From positions 1 to 64,000 of the forward strand of contig NZ_JAPQNT010000002.1 of the NCBI RefSeq assembly GCF_028867965.1: a DNA stretch of 64,000 bases. Direction: 5' to 3'. Within the stretch, counting starts at the first letter, position 1. Every line of letters begins with the position of its first letter. A program made the translations under genes and the position numbers. The notes beneath the pieces are model-generated. The model saw only the letters and a program-made list of their open reading frames with translations, was not told the origin of the DNA and did not search any database. Below are positions 2,240 to 10,636 of this stretch, in pieces. This stretch comes from Flavobacterium sp. SUN046 (GTDB lineage: Bacteria > Bacteroidota > Bacteroidia > Flavobacteriales > Flavobacteriaceae).

Positions 2240-3244
2240 TTATCCGACTTTAAAACCCAGTTTTACAATGCGTTTACCACCATTTTCTGAGAAAATTGTA
2301 TTTACAGCTTCAACATAATATTTACTTCTATTTTGTGGAAAATCTTTATCTATTATTTTTGCTGTATGTCCTGGACTACAGAAAGGAATTAACCAACCCG
2401 TAAGGCTCCCCTCGTATCTATCTCTAAAATTATTATTATAAGTTGTTTCAAGTAGTTTTTCAGCCTGTTCTTTACTAATACTCGATAAATTTAATTTTAT
2501 TATGTCGCTATTATTTTCAGCATTACCTTTTTCAAACTTAAATTGTTTTCCATTTTTATCTGTTGTTTCAATAACTACCTTTAAACTTTTATCGTCTTTA
2601 GAAATATAAGTTAAATCATATTCTTCAACATTAAGTTCAAAATCATAAATTACTTCGCCTGTTTTTTCTACAAATGGAGGATGTATGTGTAATTCTTTTT
2701 TTTCTGTATTAAAATAAATGTTAAATTTTGTTTCTTCAGCTATTTTTTTTAAAACATCAAATCCAGTGGCTTGATTAATTATAAATTTATCATAATTCAT
2801 TTCAATATCACAAATAACTTTAAATTCAGAATTTACTTCTGTAGATACGTATTGACAAAGATTAAAAATACTAATACTTTTAAACTCTTTTGATGTTAGC
2901 GCTTTTTTATATAAATAAAGTGCATCAATACATTTAATAACAAAATCATTTTTATTATAAGAAACTTTATCTATGTATCCTTCAAATTCATTAACTAATA
3001 CTTTATCGTAGCCTAATTCAATTTTAATGCTATCACCAGTTTTAAAGAATCTTTCAAGGTTTAAACAATTATTCATTTGAAAACCTGACATCAAAATGGT
3101 TGCAAAATCTGTTAAATTTTGAAATGAAGTTTCTATATTAATACTAATTAAAGGTAAGTATCTTGTGTTTTCTGTAGTTTGGTCTGTATCTATTATTATA
3201 ACTCCATTACGTTTGGTAGTTATTCTATAATTCATATCATACAT
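2240..3244 (-). CDS. Phage tail-hub / late control gene D-like protein
   Basis: This 334-residue protein resembles the gpD (late control D) and VgrG N-terminal hub family of contractile phage tails. An N-terminal beta-rich part contains FKTGDSIKIELGYD, which resembles the spot where hub proteins describe displacement from the tail axis. It is followed by a segment like FDVLKKIAEETKFNIYF, typical of these proteins, and a C-terminal part with the pattern HTAKIIDKDFP. In complete phages the hub joins tube and baseplate. No sheath, tube, baseplate, capsid or terminase gene is visible nearby, so it is either a remnant or a single retained or repurposed gene. A terminator at 3265-3284 separates it from the upstream gene. 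A second in-frame ATG three codons in (3235) is an alternative start. Confidence 0.65.
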   Translation of the reverse strand: MYDMNYRITTKRNGVIIIDTDQTTENTRYLPLISINIETSFQNLTDFATILMSGFQMNNCLNLERFFKTGDSIKIELGYDKVLVNEFEGYIDKVSYNKNDFVIKCIDALYLYKKALTSKEFKSISIFNLCQYVSTEVNSEFKVICDIEMNYDKFIINQATGFDVLKKIAEETKFNIYFNTEKKELHIHPPFVEKTGEVIYDFELNVEEYDLTYISKDDKSLKVVIETTDKNGKQFKFEKGNAENNSDIIKLNLSSISKEQAEKLLETTYNNNFRDRYEGSLTGWLIPFCSPGHTAKIIDKDFPQNRSKYYVEAVNTIFSENGGKRIVKLGFKVG

Positions 3245-5458: not shown

Positions 5459-5466
5459 CAAATATA
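5459..5466 (-). promoter_or_regulatory. -7 promoter box for the leftward small-gene run
   Basis: On the minus strand the bases read TATATTTG, a full match to the Bacteroidota TAnnTTTG -7 element, about 33 bp upstream of the 5426 start codon. It overlaps the palindrome at 5465-5482 by two bases, so a bound repressor would occlude it. No clear -33 TTG is visible. Confidence 0.55.
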
Positions 5467-5483
5467 GTATAAATTTATACTAT
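5464..5483. promoter_or_regulatory. Palindromic operator in the repressor intergenic region
   Basis: ATAGTATAAATTTATACTAT is a perfect 20-bp palindrome, 11 bp upstream of the repressor start and on the promoter of the divergent small gene. Its 18-bp core matches the palindrome upstream of the transposase (8892-8909) at 16 of 18 positions, with identical TAGTAT/ATACTA arms. This strongly suggests a shared repressor-binding site. Confidence 0.7.
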
Positions 5484-5494
5484 TATAAAATAAA

Positions 5495-5980
5495 ATGGAA
5501 AAAAATTTAACCAATATAAAAGAGCGGGTTTTAATATTTTGTAAATACAAAGGTTTGAGTATTGAACCCTTTTTAGAATCAATTGGAATGACCTATGGAA
5601 GTTTTAAAGGCAAAGCTAAAAAAGGGAGTTTAAATTCGGATGCTATAGCAAATATTTATACTAATTTTTCTGATTTGAACTTGGAGTGGTTATTAACTGG
5701 AAACGGTGATATGATTAAACCTAGTTTTGAAAATAATTTAAAGATTAGTAAAAAGTCGATTAAAGAGAATTTAAACTCTCCAAATGATTTGTTAATAGAA
5801 AGTTTAAAGGAAACCATAGAAAGCCAAAAAACAACAATTAGTGCGTTACAAATGACTATAAATATGTTTAAAGAAAGCAATTATATTGACTCTCCTTTAA
5901 ACGAATCTAAAAATAGAACACTTATAGAAAACATTGAAAAAGATGGTATTGCACAAGCTAATAAGATGTTAAAAAAATAA
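5495..5980 (+). CDS. Phage-type repressor with N-terminal helix-turn-helix
   Basis: This 161-residue protein is the only plus-strand gene of the element. Residues about 5-75 have the pattern of Bacteroidota phage repressors: a helix-turn-helix region (LSIEPFLESIGMTYGSFKGK) ending in the characteristic LEWLLTGNGDMI. The C-terminal part (about 105-135, LKETIESQKTTISALQ) is a predicted coiled-coil that could dimerise the protein. No S24 peptidase domain is present, so SOS-type self-cleavage is unlikely. It is divergent from the small early gene, convergent with the MuB-like gene (10-bp gap), and preceded by a palindromic operator, so autoregulation is likely. It is probably the immunity repressor of the element. 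Confidence 0.8.
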   Translation: MEKNLTNIKERVLIFCKYKGLSIEPFLESIGMTYGSFKGKAKKGSLNSDAIANIYTNFSDLNLEWLLTGNGDMIKPSFENNLKISKKSIKENLNSPNDLLIESLKETIESQKTTISALQMTINMFKESNYIDSPLNESKNRTLIENIEKDGIAQANKMLKK

Positions 5981-5990
5981 TTAACTACTA

Positions 5991-6950
5991 TTACCAAATT
6001 AAATTCCCTTCGGGTAAATTCAATACTTTTCTAACTAGTTGCATATCTAAAGAAACATTAAGTCTTTCAGCTTCTATTGATACAGGGACAATAACATCAT
6101 GTAATTCACCATAATTTTTACAATTTATTAGTAAAAATTTTTTAAATTCAATATCTTCTATATCCCCAATAAATTGTTTAAAAGTTCTGTCAATACTGGG
6201 TAAAATTCGCAATCCAAATTTAACACGTCTTTGAAATTGTGGAATTCCCGATTTGTTTCTACGTTTTAATAGTTCAATGTTTTCGATTAGCTGGTCTGTT
6301 CCTATAAAGACTATTGAACAAAATTCGTGAATGTTGTCATAAATTTCTTTCATTGCACAAAGCGAGGTTTGCCTTAAATATTCGCTTTCATCAATTATTA
6401 ACATTGGTTTATGTCCGTATGTTTTTAATCCCTCAAAACGTCTGGCAATCCATCGTATTTTTGTCGATTTAGATCCGCCTGTAGAGTGTGTTTTTAATTC
6501 CTCTAATATCTTATCTAATAAATCGTTTAAGTTATCACTTGAGCCTGCTGTTACTAAAAAAGTATCTATTGAGTTTTTTGCGGTGAATAAATTTGCTGTA
6601 TGTGTTTTTCCGCATCCAGTTTCACCAATTATAGTAATGGTTTGATTGTATTTTTTAGCATCAGTAAGATTGGCTAAAATAGCATTTGTTTGGGGTGTTG
6701 GTTGTGTTTGCCAGTGTTTTTTTTCCGTTTCAAATCCGCATAAATTAGCAAGAATATAAAAATACTTTTGATGTATAAAGGCTTCCGTTCCTTTAGCATC
6801 ATACATAAATTTGCTGTTTTCTTTTAAAATAATAGAAACAAATTCTTTTCTAATTCCTGTTTTATTAACTATATCCGATTGAGTAAAATTATTCTCAACT
6901 AGATAATTTTTTAATACTTTGGCAATAGCTATTTTAATCGATGTATCCAT
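5991..6950 (-). CDS. MuB-like AAA+ ATPase, transposition target-selection protein
   Basis: A 319-residue protein with the architecture of MuB: an N-terminal helix-turn-helix (about 20-45, LVENNFTQSDIVNKTGIRKE) followed by an AAA+ domain with Walker A GETGCGKT (109-116), Walker B MLIIDE (183-188) and a sensor-1-like IVFIGTDQ (213-220). In Mu and its relatives this ATPase polymerises on DNA, chooses the target and activates the transposase. The N-terminal helix-turn-helix separates it from Tn7 TnsC. Its start codon overlaps the transposase stop (TAATG), so the two are translationally coupled. Confidence 0.88.
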   Translation of the reverse strand: MDTSIKIAIAKVLKNYLVENNFTQSDIVNKTGIRKEFVSIILKENSKFMYDAKGTEAFIHQKYFYILANLCGFETEKKHWQTQPTPQTNAILANLTDAKKYNQTITIIGETGCGKTHTANLFTAKNSIDTFLVTAGSSDNLNDLLDKILEELKTHSTGGSKSTKIRWIARRFEGLKTYGHKPMLIIDESEYLRQTSLCAMKEIYDNIHEFCSIVFIGTDQLIENIELLKRRNKSGIPQFQRRVKFGLRILPSIDRTFKQFIGDIEDIEFKKFLLINCKNYGELHDVIVPVSIEAERLNVSLDMQLVRKVLNLPEGNLIW

Positions 6951-8842
6951 TATAAATATTCAGTTATATCAATTTTTTCTTTGTTGTACTCGTCAATTTC
7001 TTTTTGTGAATCCTGTTTGTGTTCATTCGCTTTTTTGTCAACATCTTTCTTTAGCCTTTTAATTACAATTTTAGCATTATCTTGAATAATGTTAGATTCA
7101 TTTTTTCGGTCTTTATGTTGACCTCTCGAATCGACTAAAAGCAATTTTGCTAGCGTATCGTTTAACTCTGGTTGTCTTAATAAATTTTCTACTATAGTTG
7201 CATTTTCAGAGCGTTTATTTGTTATGTATTCAATTATTTGATTATTATATTCTGTTATATTTTGTAATTGTTTTGCATCGTTTTCAGAACGTTCGGCAAG
7301 TGCCATTGGCTGTATGTGTTTTTGTTGCAAAATAAATTGATATGTACCTATTTCATTAATAAGTTTACCGTTTTTAGAATTAGCATTGATTACCAATATT
7401 TGTGATAGGTCATTAGAATCATATTTTATACACCAGTCATTATGTGATAGCTTTCTAAAATTAATATCAAAACTATCATAAACGAGTTCTTGACCTTGCA
7501 ATTTGGTTATTAAACCAGCTCCGGTTAATCGATTGGTATATCCTGTACTTTCACCCAGTACTTTTAAATACATTTCAAATGTCATTTCCGATTTATATTC
7601 AACTGGAACATTTAACCATTGGTTAATATATTCATCTCTTTTTTTGGCACGTTCCAACTCTATAGCAGATATTAATTGCTGTTTACAACCCTCTTTATCG
7701 GGAAACTGATTACGAATTTTATTCAAGTATTCTGTATTTGGTTGGTTTTTAGAACCTGAATTTACATTGTGCCCTGACCAGTTCTGGAACATTTGACAAT
7801 ATTCTTTATTAAATCTATTAAAATAAGGCTCGATTATTTTGGCTTTTGCGTTCTTTACTTTTGCAGGTGTGTAGTGTGTTGTGCAAGCTTCATAAATAGG
7901 CTTTAAAACACTAATACTGTAATTGTCTGTTTGTAGTTGATATGGTCTAAAAAAGCTACCAAACAAAGCTTTAGTATGTTGAAAAGCGTTTCTTAATGCC
8001 TCTTTAATTAGTTGTGGTGTTTCGTGAGTTCCAATTGCATAACCTACTGGATATTTATTAAATGGATCTAAAATAAGCACCACATTCAATCTATTATGAT
8101 AAGTTGTTATTGAGTAACCTTTTTTATTTGTTGTGGTAGATTGGTAAAGTAGTTCTGCATCCCATCCGTCCATTGTCCAATATAGCATTGGTTTGGTTGG
8201 TGCAGTACGTTTATTTTGCATCAATAATGTATTTGATAGTGCATTTGTTCCTTTACGTCCTGCAATTATAACAAGTTTGTTAGCTTCTTTTCTGTTAGCA
8301 ATAGTTTGAGCTGTAATAGTTTTCCATCCCAATTTTTTACAAATTAGATTGTAAACATTGGCTATTTGTTTATTATCAAAATTTTGATGTTTTGCCAGTA
8401 GTTCATCAATAAGAGAGGTTTGTTCATTATCTTTTATTTTTGAGGCATTTTTATTATCTAATCTTTTATCAATTATTGCGGAATAACCCTGTTTTAAATA
8501 TTTTTCAATTTGGGTTCTTAAAGCTCTCGAGCTTTTGGGTAATTTGTGCGGAACATCATTAAAAGCATTTACATCATTAGATAAAGTTTCCCAAATATTA
8601 TTTATTTTACCATCTACATAATCTTCATAGCTTTTTTTGTTTTTTTTTATTTTGACTACAGTATTTAAAACCGAAGCATTATTAGTATAAATTTCAACCA
8701 TTTTAAAAGAAAGCCTTTTGTTTAAATCACTATAATAATGATTTGAGAAAAAATCAAATGCTTTATTGTCATACTCAAAAAATAATTTAAAAAAATTGAT
8801 TTTTGATGTGTTAACGATGCTTTTTGAATTATTTGCACTCAT
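6950..8842 (-). CDS. Mu-like DDE transposase (rve integrase core)
   Basis: A 630-residue transposase. The rve catalytic core has acidic residues consistent with a DDE triad: D225 (YWTMDGWD), D306 (LQTDNYS) and E338 (KIIEPYF). The N-terminal 200 residues are probably DNA-binding modules (KLPKSSRALRTQIEKYLKQG). A C-terminal extension of about 250 residues includes a beta-rich region and a lysine-rich tail likely to contact the ATPase. Size, order and coupling to a MuB-like ATPase identify a Mu-like replicative transposition pair rather than a simple IS. The promoter upstream carries a repressor operator. All motifs look intact, so the protein may be active. Confidence 0.88.
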   Translation of the reverse strand: MSANNSKSIVNTSKINFFKLFFEYDNKAFDFFSNHYYSDLNKRLSFKMVEIYTNNASVLNTVVKIKKNKKSYEDYVDGKINNIWETLSNDVNAFNDVPHKLPKSSRALRTQIEKYLKQGYSAIIDKRLDNKNASKIKDNEQTSLIDELLAKHQNFDNKQIANVYNLICKKLGWKTITAQTIANRKEANKLVIIAGRKGTNALSNTLLMQNKRTAPTKPMLYWTMDGWDAELLYQSTTTNKKGYSITTYHNRLNVVLILDPFNKYPVGYAIGTHETPQLIKEALRNAFQHTKALFGSFFRPYQLQTDNYSISVLKPIYEACTTHYTPAKVKNAKAKIIEPYFNRFNKEYCQMFQNWSGHNVNSGSKNQPNTEYLNKIRNQFPDKEGCKQQLISAIELERAKKRDEYINQWLNVPVEYKSEMTFEMYLKVLGESTGYTNRLTGAGLITKLQGQELVYDSFDINFRKLSHNDWCIKYDSNDLSQILVINANSKNGKLINEIGTYQFILQQKHIQPMALAERSENDAKQLQNITEYNNQIIEYITNKRSENATIVENLLRQPELNDTLAKLLLVDSRGQHKDRKNESNIIQDNAKIVIKRLKKDVDKKANEHKQDSQKEIDEYNKEKIDITEYL

Positions 8843-8885
8843 TAGTTCGTTTTTTTATTGTTGCTGTTGTTACAAAAATATAACA

Positions 8886-8893
8886 CAAAAGTA
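8886..8893 (-). promoter_or_regulatory. -7 promoter box of the transposase operon
   Basis: The minus strand reads TACTTTTG, a full TAnnTTTG match, about 43 bp ahead of the transposase start. It overlaps the operator palindrome at 8892-8909 by two bases, the same overlap as between the -7 box at 5459-5466 and its operator. Confidence 0.6.
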
Positions 8894-8909
8894 GTATTTA
8901 TTTATACTA
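8892..8909. promoter_or_regulatory. Palindromic operator upstream of the transposase
   Basis: TAGTATTTATTTATACTA has 6-bp inverted arms (TAGTAT/ATACTA) around a 6-bp centre and matches the operator beside the repressor gene at 16 of 18 positions. It lies on the upstream edge of the transposase -7 box, so binding of the 5495-5980 repressor here would shut off transposition genes. Confidence 0.7.
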
Positions 8910-9077
8910 AAAAATATGTTTATGGAAAAAAAATAGACTAATTCTTTAAATTGTATTCTGTTAGAATCCTGCGCACAACCCTAAAATTAAAAAAACATAT
9001 TTTTTCATCATTTTAATGATGCGAGGAAATAGCTTTTAAATAATTATTAAATGTCAATTAAACCTATATTAATAGTC

Positions 9078-9335
9078 ATTTAAAAACCTAAAATAAATGC
9101 CTTATTACTCATAAAAGCGGGTATTAGTGTCAATTCTAGCGGTTGAGAAAACATAAATACCTAAAAACCAATAGTGTAGAGTATTTTATTTGTTTTTTTA
9201 TATAATTATAGGGTATATTTTCAATGTTTTTTACGCTTTATTTGATTTTTTTTGGTTGTTATGGGTATTAAAATACATATTATCAAACATCCTTTTAGGT
9301 AACCCATTAGGTAACGCATTAGGTAACCCATTTAT
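9078..9335. repeat. Iteron module, copy 1
   Basis: About 255 bp that recur 337 bp downstream (9415-9672) without any insertion or deletion. The most conserved blocks are around 9090-9116, 9181-9227 and 9254-9274. The module ends in three 12-bp direct repeats of AGGTAACCCATT (9297-9332; the middle one reads AGGTAACGCATT). A TTG at 9190-9192 and TATATTTT at 9214-9221, 21 bp apart, resemble a rightward promoter. Confidence 0.85.
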
Positions 9336-9414
9336 AAAATAATAGCTTTTTTTCATTTTTTACCAGAATCAACAAAAGACAGTTTAAATACTATTTAAAA
9401 TGAAGTTAATCTGC

Positions 9415-9672
9415 ATTTTAAAACCTAAAATAAATGCCTTATTACTCATAAAAACAGGTATTAGTGTCAATTATATCAGTTTATAAAACGTAAACCACTA
9501 AAAACCAACACAATATAGTATTTTATTTGTTTTTTTATATAATTATAGGGTATATTTTCAATGTATTTTGTGATTTATTTTAGTTTTTTAGGTTGTTATG
9601 GGTATTAAAATAGATATTATGTAACCTACTTTTAGGCAACCCTACAGGCAACCCTAAAGGACATCCTATAAT
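9415..9672. repeat. Iteron module, copy 2
   Basis: The second copy of the module, in the same orientation and in exact register with copy 1 (offset 337). Its iterons read AGGCAACCCTAC, AGGCAACCCTAA and AGGACATCCTAT (9634-9669), so the 12-bp period is kept although bases have diverged. The promoter-like TTG...TATATTTT spacing is also preserved. Conservation of blocks and spacing despite drift elsewhere suggests a selected binding or RNA function. Confidence 0.85.
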
Positions 9673-9870
9673 ATAATTTATATTTTGTGATTTAAAACAA
9701 AACAGCCAAAAAATAAAGCTAATATTCATTTTTAGACTTTTAAAATAAGGCGTTTTTAGGCTGTAATGTCCTTATTTATATAGGATTTTATTGTTAAATG
9801 GAAGTAAGTGTATTAAATCAAGCGCTTTTCACTTTAAAACGGTAGTATAATGGTAGTAAAAAGTAGTAAA

Positions 9871-9977
9871 TGGAAGTTTTGTTTTTTAATCAATTTTAAG
9901 ACATTTTTATCTTAAGTATTGATTTTATTGGTTTTTTCGACCTTTTTTTATTAGTATTCTTTTGGAAGTTTTGTTTT
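9871..9977. repeat. Direct repeats TGGAAGTTTTGTTTT flanking a stem-loop
   Basis: The 15-mer TGGAAGTTTTGTTTT occurs at 9871-9885 and at 9963-9977. Between them AATCAA..TTAAGA pairs with TCTTAA..TTGATT (9888-9924). Related GGTAGTA and GGAAGT motifs precede (9797 onward). They could be transposase-binding sites near an element end, but this is inference. Confidence 0.5.
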
Positions 9978-10084
9978 AGCCCCTATAAATGTACAAAAAT
10001 TACTATGCAAACATACTAAAACTTATTTGTTAAATAAATGTTAAATTTAAGTACTTTGTAATACATAATACCTTTTTTTGGTTG

Positions 10085-10092
10085 TATCTTTG
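10085..10092 (+). promoter_or_regulatory. -7 promoter box upstream of the DUF4870 gene
   Basis: TATCTTTG matches the TAnnTTTG -7 consensus 73 bp ahead of the start at 10166. No well-spaced -33 TTG is seen (the nearest are 26 bp away or too close). Confidence 0.5.
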
Positions 10093-10165
10093 TATAAGAA
10101 ATTAATAAGCTATCTATAGTATTATAAGTTTTGAGTTTTAATCATCAATCAATAAATCAAAAAAA

Positions 10166-10636
10166 ATGATCACCTCTAACGAAAAAACAATCTCAGCAGT
10201 AACACACTTAAGTACATTAAGTCAGTATTGTATTCCATTTGGGAATTTTATTTTGCCAATTGTAATTTGGAGTTCCAAAAAAAAGGATTCTGAATTTATA
10301 GATTATAACGGAAAACAAACCTTAAATTTTCAATTAAGTATTTTTTTATACACTGTTGTTTTGGGAATAATTGCAATTCCGATAATAATTTATACTGTTA
10401 TGAAAAATGCAACTGTTGAACATGGTTTATTTGATAACAATTTTTCTGATCACGATTTTGTTTTCGAAAATATTCGTAGAGGCGATTTTACTGGAATAGC
10501 AATTCTAGCAATTTTAGCGATTGTTTTTTTCGGATTTCTAAAAATCATGGAATTCATCTTAGTAATTTATGCAGCAGTGAAAGCATCGAATGGCGAACAA
10601 TATAAATATCCGTTAAGCATTCCTTTCTTTAAATAA
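10166..10636 (+). CDS. DUF4870 domain membrane protein
   Basis: A 156-residue integral membrane protein with about three to four hydrophobic segments (around residues 20-35, 52-75 and 108-140). It contains the DUF4870 pattern in which an N-terminal THLSTLSQYCIPFGNFILP stretch is followed by FIDYNGKQTLNFQLS. The family is widespread in Bacteroidota and has no established biochemical role. It lies 89 bp ahead of a PadR regulator and the PspC-domain gene, with which DUF4870 genes are often grouped, pointing to envelope homeostasis. A conserved -7 box precedes it. Confidence 0.85.
   Translation: MITSNEKTISAVTHLSTLSQYCIPFGNFILPIVIWSSKKKDSEFIDYNGKQTLNFQLSIFLYTVVLGIIAIPIIIYTVMKNATVEHGLFDNNFSDHDFVFENIRRGDFTGIAILAILAIVFFGFLKIMEFILVIYAAVKASNGEQYKYPLSIPFFK

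Follow-up and report, generated by a model that had tools for sequence, protein, structure and literature searches.

A tandemly duplicated left-end segment with candidate enhancer iterons in a Mu-like prophage of Flavobacterium sp. SUN046

We analysed a 64,000-nucleotide stretch of the Flavobacterium sp. SUN046 genome (contig NZ_JAPQNT010000002.1, positions 1 to 64,000; hereafter the window). A Mu-like prophage in it carries, upstream of its transposase gene, a non-coding module present in two copies, each with three 12-bp repeats (iterons). We consider it likely that the module pair arose when the left-end control segment of a Bacteroidota Mu-like phage was duplicated in tandem, and that in this phage group the transposase binds such iterons through its N-terminal winged-helix domain, so that they act as a transposition enhancer. 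This reading is drawn from the conservation and position of the array in related elements, the covariation of its bases with transposase residues, the predicted fold of the N-terminal domain and the absence of this domain from the window. The features concerned are as follows.

9047–9340, forward strand: module copy 1, the inner one of the pair, 294 nt long and 81% identical to copy 2 (repeat search)
9384–9677, forward strand: module copy 2, lying at the distance from the element end that is most frequent among relatives (repeat search, one family of two copies)
9297–9332, reverse strand: three 12-bp iterons of copy 1, reading inward AATGGGTTACCT, AATGCGTTACCT and AATGGGTTACCT, in register with the arrays of relatives
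9634–9669, reverse strand: three 12-bp iterons of copy 2, two well kept and the outermost degraded, in register with the arrays of relatives
6950–8842, reverse strand: MuA/TnsB-like DDE transposase, 630 aa (phrog_310), without the N-terminal domain of about 75–90 aa that relatives carry

RESULTS

Iterons covary with the N-terminal domain of the transposase

Related elements were collected as 207 loci, which yielded 110 arrays, 84 after removal of identical flanks and 80 after a motif filter. Twelve of these had a truncated or unclear N-terminus or register and one failed a length filter; three of the twelve were restored with an earlier start, giving 70 elements, or 68 once near-duplicates were removed. 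The elements are mostly metagenomic contigs with cut ends, and alignment, register and repressor calls were automatic.

The iterons are near-identical within an element. From one element to another the middle varies, with flanks (about WWTRG and CA) that are mostly retained. The distance between iterons was correlated with that between N-terminal domains (rho 0.345), and the partial correlation on the catalytic core was 0.224 (permutation p 0.002, n=68). An earlier run with 42 elements agreed (partial 0.248, p 0.001). For seven segments of the catalytic core the partial correlation with iteron distance was at most 0.094.

By mutual information, the best of 653 alignment columns for iteron positions 7, 8, 9, 10 and 11 were columns 45, 46, 49, 46 and 50, with z values of 6.4, 5.0, 4.1, 9.5 and 5.2. 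These columns are residues 27, 28, 31, 28 and 32 of the relative L057 and 36, 37, 40, 37 and 41 of L048, and they lie in, or one residue past, a single predicted helix. Positions 2 and 4 also peak in the domain (columns 67 and 64), making 7 of 12 tops. After grouping of residues, the N-terminal domain held 12 of the 20 highest pairs against 2.2 expected. None of 100 within-clade permutations reached the largest value, the helix sum or the 7 of 12 tops in the domain; this control is coarse, because 57 of the 68 elements share one cluster.

At column 46, N went with T at position 10 in 15 of 16 elements, K with A in 12 of 12 and A with C in 9 of 13; at column 45, D went with C at position 7 in 8 of 10. 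In leave-one-out prediction, column 46 gave the correct base at position 10 for 51 of 68 elements (majority guess 29, nearest relative 30) and ranked first of the 653 columns. When relatives closer than a core distance of 0.5 were excluded, the score was 41 of 68 (majority 29, nearest 22). A single residue also beat both the majority and the nearest relative at positions 7 and 8, where the columns again ranked first. The gain was slight at position 9 (column rank 48 of 653), and at position 11 the prediction fell below the majority guess. Independent nearest pairs agreed at positions 10 and 7; at position 9 they did not, which weighs against our reading. A held-out test was weak, having seven loci, one with its array cut by the locus edge and two of uncertain register. 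Covariation is not binding; yet because the letters of the repeats and the residues of the transposase change together across related phages, the iterons look like docking sites for the transposase.

The N-terminal domain is predicted to fold as a winged helix. Its best solved folds, with middling scores, are 1TNS and 1QPM, so that it stands nearest to the enhancer-binding domain of MuA and the DNA-binding domain of the Mu repressor. At the sequence level, the PF02316 (Mu_1) profile matched none of the N-terminal pieces of L048, L038, L057 and L125 at E≤0.5, and matched MuA itself; a search of the N-terminal alignment against PDB sequences found no relative (best E 1.1).

The array is widespread and keeps its place near the left end

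Of 121 elements, 68 carry an array of period 12 upstream of the transposase that scores at least 20 of 24 matches; 11 more reached 19 and 42 scored lower. Any other lag from 7 to 30 gave at most 6 of the 121. These elements have at least 1200 bp of upstream DNA and are counted once per identical transposase DNA (an earlier count, 76 of 128, still included duplicates). Downstream of the transposase, lag 12 was found in 0 of 128 within the DNA available. Three iterons are present in 58 of 68 elements, two in 6, and four or five in 4. The first-pass annotation of this DNA would have been contradicted by a lack of conservation outside this genome; related elements do carry the array.

Four annotated phages show the array close to their left end, with none in the final 1.5 kb on the right: Elizabethkingia phage TCUEAP3, P. 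gingivalis phage008a, hankyphage p00 and Peternella_1. A fifth record, MT835523, had neither an array nor a terminus-like motif. The distance from array to terminus was measurable for 41 of the 80 arrays, some terminus-like matches in relatives being possibly false: 23 lie at 291–372 bp, 17 at 414–879 and one at 172, and 22 of the 41 start 309–372 bp from their own terminus. Extra iteron words in the same sense recur in an element's own flanks (9-mers in 13 of 68, 2.1 expected under shuffling). By eye, L150 and several of L229–L256 (Pg and hankyphage type) have three iterons, an end-type site (AAAACGAAATGT or similar) and two more iterons.

These data favour a protein-binding array of the enhancer kind near the end of a Mu-like element, in line with the binding array proposed earlier. 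An origin-like controller had been offered as well, for which we found nothing: the neighbours of the array are the transposase gene and, past the terminus, a DUF4870 gene, with no replication initiator gene as at plasmid-type iteron origins. Judged by titles and the openings of abstracts, none of the papers returned by our literature searches describes such arrays.

Two further motifs were seen in the relatives. One, close to ACCCCNTAATGCA, lies about 25–35 and 80–90 bp inward of the iterons, often twice with a spacing of 52–54 bp (18 of 26 elements with both sites at 8 or better, out of 68), and is little changed while the iterons vary; its counterparts in the window are at 9202–9214 and 9539–9551. 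The other, GGCTTTT, reads inward between terminus and iterons in 29 of 68 elements (reversed control, 1); by eye it is part of terminator-like hairpins, which could shield the array from host transcription.

The duplicated module holds a repressor tail, constant motifs and iterons

The module had been described as 255 bp long. The duplication itself, its gapless offset of 337 and the near-identical blocks were all recovered, and each copy extends to 294 nt. A recount gave 57 mismatches in 294. In the coordinates of copy 1 the identical runs are 34 bp (9083–9116), 16 bp (9120–9135), 48 bp (9180–9227) and 22 bp (9254–9275). The three 12-bp repeats per copy noted at the outset are present in both: AGGTAACCCATT (9297–9308), AGGTAACGCATT (9309–9320) and AGGTAACCCATT (9321–9332) in copy 1, and AGGCAACCCTAC (9634–9645), AGGCAACCCTAA (9646–9657) and the degraded AGGACATCCTAT (9658–9669) in copy 2.

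We compared the window with the stretch upstream of the transposase in L048 (F. jejuense) and L049 (F. suaedae), whose transposases are 62% and 55% identical. From the end inward, both have a terminus, end-type sites, three 12-bp iterons, an AT-rich block, the 3' end of an oppositely oriented S24-type repressor gene, a small gene and a full-length transposase gene. The window modules, made up of the last codons of a lost repressor gene, an AT-rich block and the three iterons, fit the middle of this layout. The rest of the repressor and the first 75–90 transposase residues are missing upstream of the window transposase.

9090–9146, forward strand: remnant of the S24-type repressor C-terminus, copy 1 (KINALLLIKAGISVNSSG, then stop); matches L048 residues 219–234, 62.5%, E 0.02
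9427–9486, forward strand: the same repressor tail, copy 2 (KINALLLIKTGISVNYISL, then stop); matches L048 residues 219–236, 50%, E 0.08
9202–9214, reverse strand: X2-type constant motif (ACCCTATAATTAT), inside the identical run 9180–9227
9539–9551, reverse strand: X2-type constant motif, copy 2 (motif scan)

The repressor query was a 236-residue ORF translation from L048, and the E-values refer to a 1.2-kb target. The first part of the modules translates to KINALLLIKAGISVN... or KINALLLIKTGISVN..., followed by a stop. The repressor tails of L062, L063, L067, L075, L076 and L078 match the same place in copy 1, and those of L062, L063 and L067 also match copy 2. The E-values alone are weak; we assign the repressor tail because place, frame, stop and neighbours coincide.

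The X2 motif scored 8 or better of 12 in 55 of 68 relatives against 16 of 68 in shuffles. In the scan of the window X2 was placed and X1 was not. The promoter-like pair TTG-N21-TATATTTT pointed out earlier does occur in both copies and overlaps a motif that relatives keep. Its reading as a promoter gained no support: a sigma-70 scan of 8800–10200, with a consensus that does not cover Bacteroidota promoters, gave 7 sites against a shuffle mean of 11.3. A terminator scan of the same region was no better than shuffles.

The mismatches between the copies are clustered, a 48-bp run being reached in 0.1% of 5000 mismatch shuffles. Such clustering points to some form of constraint, to gene conversion or to a recent duplication; it could be explained by selection on the X block or, again, by the duplication being recent.

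A search of the genome with the 651-bp block returned itself and one weak stretch of 39 bp (E 0.0065). In 397 family genomes the module DNA had, beyond the window, only matches of about 23–68 bases in 55 genomes, which we take for AT-rich chance matches, and it matched no phage record. Kinship with relatives is visible through position and period only. We also considered the iterons as a peptide code (Gly-Asn-Pro repeats are open in one frame) and rejected it, the frames being unkept between relatives by eye.

The element ends beyond the modules

9980–9987, reverse strand: element terminus, reading inward TATAGGGGCTAAAAC (pattern search and annotated phages)
9871–9885 and 9963–9977, forward strand: end-type repeats TGGAAGTTTTGTTTT, candidate transposase end-binding sites (repeat search)

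The modules had been suggested to be the transposase-binding end itself. The terminus and the end-type repeats place that end at about 9987. The 22-base terminus pattern occurs once in the genome at up to 3 mismatches, Peternella_1 begins with TACAGGGGATAAAAC, and terminus-like matches occur in relatives; comparable end-type repeats are seen by eye at annotated phage ends. Position 9892, where the inner end-type site is similar, was dropped for 9987 after this comparison. The iterons of copy 2 are 318–353 bp from the terminus, which leaves copy 1 as the extra one. Left ends begin with TA (TATAGGGG, TACAGGGG, TATGGGG, TAAGGGG), in place of the TG/CA ends of Mu, and right ends with TATAATCG or TAAATCCG.

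The window transposase has lost the domain that would read the array

The window transposase starts where the N-terminal domain of its relatives ends; all 17 aligned relatives have the domain. None of the 874 stop-to-stop frames (30 codons or more) of the window matched the domain profile (best E 0.37), and four control relatives in the same search matched at 8e-36 or better. Three of the four are independent, because L085 shares a contig with L034, whose N-terminus reads as profile row L051. The domain did not turn up in a genome-wide search either, that genome offering no positive control, and tblastn of N-terminal pieces against 8800–10000 gave chance-level matches only. A candidate remnant, in which the profile match of the window transposase continues beyond the ATG for 24 bases that include one stop, was rejected as too short. 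Across 398 genomes of the genus we found 12 other matches in 10 genomes, at least two of which repeat elements already in the sample. Because all 12 lie in open frames of 695–725 codons, the short form of the transposase is seen only here.

As the transposase is without the N-terminal domain, the two window arrays are probably orphans. We give roughly even chances to a stronger version of this, compatible with our account of the family, in which they are relic DNA duplicated by chance and now bound by nothing. The missing reader, its absence elsewhere in the genome in the search just described and the degraded outer iteron of copy 2 all fit such a relic, while the clustered identity of the copies, with its rarely matched 48-bp run, speaks against it.

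5495–5980, forward strand: candidate relocated repressor gene, 161 aa, with one weak PHROG of unknown function and a palindromic site beside it; putative role
8892–8909, no strand: 18-bp palindrome-like site TAGTATTTATTTATACTA upstream of the transposase (motif search of the window)
5465–5482, no strand: sister palindrome-like site TAGTATAAATTTATACTA upstream of the 5495–5980 gene, near-identical to the 8892–8909 site

The product of 5495–5980 had no Pfam match at E≤1. With up to 3 mismatches the palindrome was matched five times in the window (the 5465 site on both strands; others include 5646 and 27002) against 0.32 expected. The paired palindromes look like operators of a repressor that controls its own gene and has a further operator at the transposase promoter. 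Since they stand before both this gene and the transposase, a new control circuit is suggested.

The prophage and its surroundings

5991–6950, reverse strand: MuB/TniB-like ATPase (PF13401, PF05621, phrog_296)

Positions 1 to about 9987 read as the transposase-side part of a Mu-like prophage. The DDE transposase and the MuB-like ATPase lie side by side, and a phage structural gene, a baseplate hub (phrog_4930), is at 2240–3244; four further ORFs on the baseplate hub side had no PHROG match. The closest named relatives of the transposase are in Flavobacterium. D225, D306 and E338 are among the invariant columns of its alignment, and we take them to be the catalytic triad. Position 1 is the start of the contig (contig 12; the genome is 3.37 Mb in 36 contigs). 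One terminus was found and the remainder of the prophage is off the contig, the other end being outside view because the contig begins there. The ORFs from 10166 to 20 kb resemble ordinary host genes, the first of them, and the only one searched, being DUF4870. Close to the start of the contig, at 1239–1728, lie two 63-codon reading frames that resemble each other, possibly a repeat where the assembly broke.

DISCUSSION

We propose that one recognition helix of the N-terminal winged-helix domain would read the variable core of the iterons. Transposase molecules would dock by these domains on the three iterons and then be passed to the end sites, and the bound transposase, by analogy with Mu, would help to assemble both ends into an active complex. 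The duplicated segment would consist of the constant motif block and the three-iteron array, together with the last 18 or so codons of the repressor gene that the phage once had. In the window the arrays would be kept, or decaying, after the element lost both its repressor and the domain that reads the enhancer. What we infer here is that the domain physically binds the iterons, that the array is an enhancer and that the window arrays are orphans.

The same covariation would be expected if the N-terminal domain bound the iterons in order to silence early-region transcription or to protect the element from self-insertion by marking it, and the array does lie close to the 3' end of the repressor gene. 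We regard this as unlikely. The predicted fold comes closest to that of the domain with which MuA binds its enhancer. In the four complete phages checked, the array was seen on the transposase side only, and some hankyphage-type elements have, by eye, an end-type site between groups of iterons.

A much weaker idea is that the iterons serve as operators of the phage repressor, the gene for which ends next to them. The longest opposite-strand ORF, taken as the repressor, ends 144–300 bp from the array in 64 of the 80 elements. In Mu the enhancer and the operators overlap. Passages of one report place the Mu enhancer next to the C-repressor gene (PMC5977238). Against operators, repressor distance did not track iteron distance in 54 elements, a set picked by ORF length and distance in which some repressors may be mis-called (rho 0.03 for the whole protein, −0.03 for the DNA-binding part; p 0.25–0.75), whereas on the same 54 the N-terminal domain gave rho 0.408 (partial 0.279, p 0.002); moreover, the array is on the 3' side of the repressor gene. 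For these two reasons we say that the array would work like the Mu enhancer and do not equate the two.

Similarly improbable is the earlier suggestion of paired small RNAs, or of an RNA structure made from the modules: the promoter-like pair in both copies is covered by the 48-bp identical run, but the window has no Rfam match at gathering thresholds, reverse complements of the iterons in their own flanks are no commoner than under shuffled assignment (51 of 68 against 51.1 for 6-mers, 22 against 22.3 for 7-mers, 5 against 6.9 for 8-mers), and the conserved block holds the X2 motif kept in relatives.

Building on the enhancer reading, we tentatively put forward, at rather less than even odds, an address system: each transposase would recognise its own three-iteron enhancer by a fast-changing helix code independent of the catalytic core. 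The window element would then be an escapee that dropped reader and repressor, took a new repressor with palindromic operators, and transposes without an enhancer, its duplicated address unread. If true, co-resident jumping phages would be kept from activating one another. An enhancer-like array with a matching domain occurs in many Bacteroidota phages, isolated ones and hankyphage included, and the natural variation among elements suffices to read the pairing of residues with bases. The old question of what makes an enhancer necessary for a jumping phage, and of how such a phage recognises itself, thereby becomes testable in tractable commensal hosts, and the window offers a natural element without the reader domain.

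In Mu, the N-terminal domain of MuA binds the transposition enhancer, a system known in detail. As with the Mu enhancer (IAS) and MuA subdomain I-alpha, the site here lies between the left end and the transposase gene, and reading by a transposase N-terminal winged helix is probable, 1TNS and 1QPM being the closest among the solved structures compared. The Bacteroidota site differs in being a regular array of three 12-bp iterons, 309–372 bp from the terminus in 22 of 41, and in lying 3' of the repressor gene, separate from repressor specificity and with no operator overlap found. Over its first 1330 bp Mu shows no array at lag 12 (best 14 of 24), and the Bacteroidota N-terminal domains tried have no Pfam Mu_1 sequence match.

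Hankyphage p00 and its relatives in Bacteroides share MuA- and MuB-like proteins and have a 12-bp triple array from about 732; the array is further from the terminus, and the transposase is about 24% identical to that of the relative L038. Replicative transposition of hankyphage is shown in a report in which the word 'enhancer' does not occur and whose passages at hand mention no such array (PMC12135933). Winogradskyella phage Peternella_1 (Winoviridae) has the same type of end and three iterons at 310–345; it differs from the window element in having an S24 repressor, the N-terminal domain and a single array. The transposable prophages of Leptospira (WETA1) resemble the elements described here in that, in passages of the report on them, some have TA at their ends; there the enhancer-binding domain is described as missing and one that 'so far appears specific to Mu' (PMC8705779). 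The Bacteroidota elements, by contrast, appear to carry such an enhancer-binding domain.
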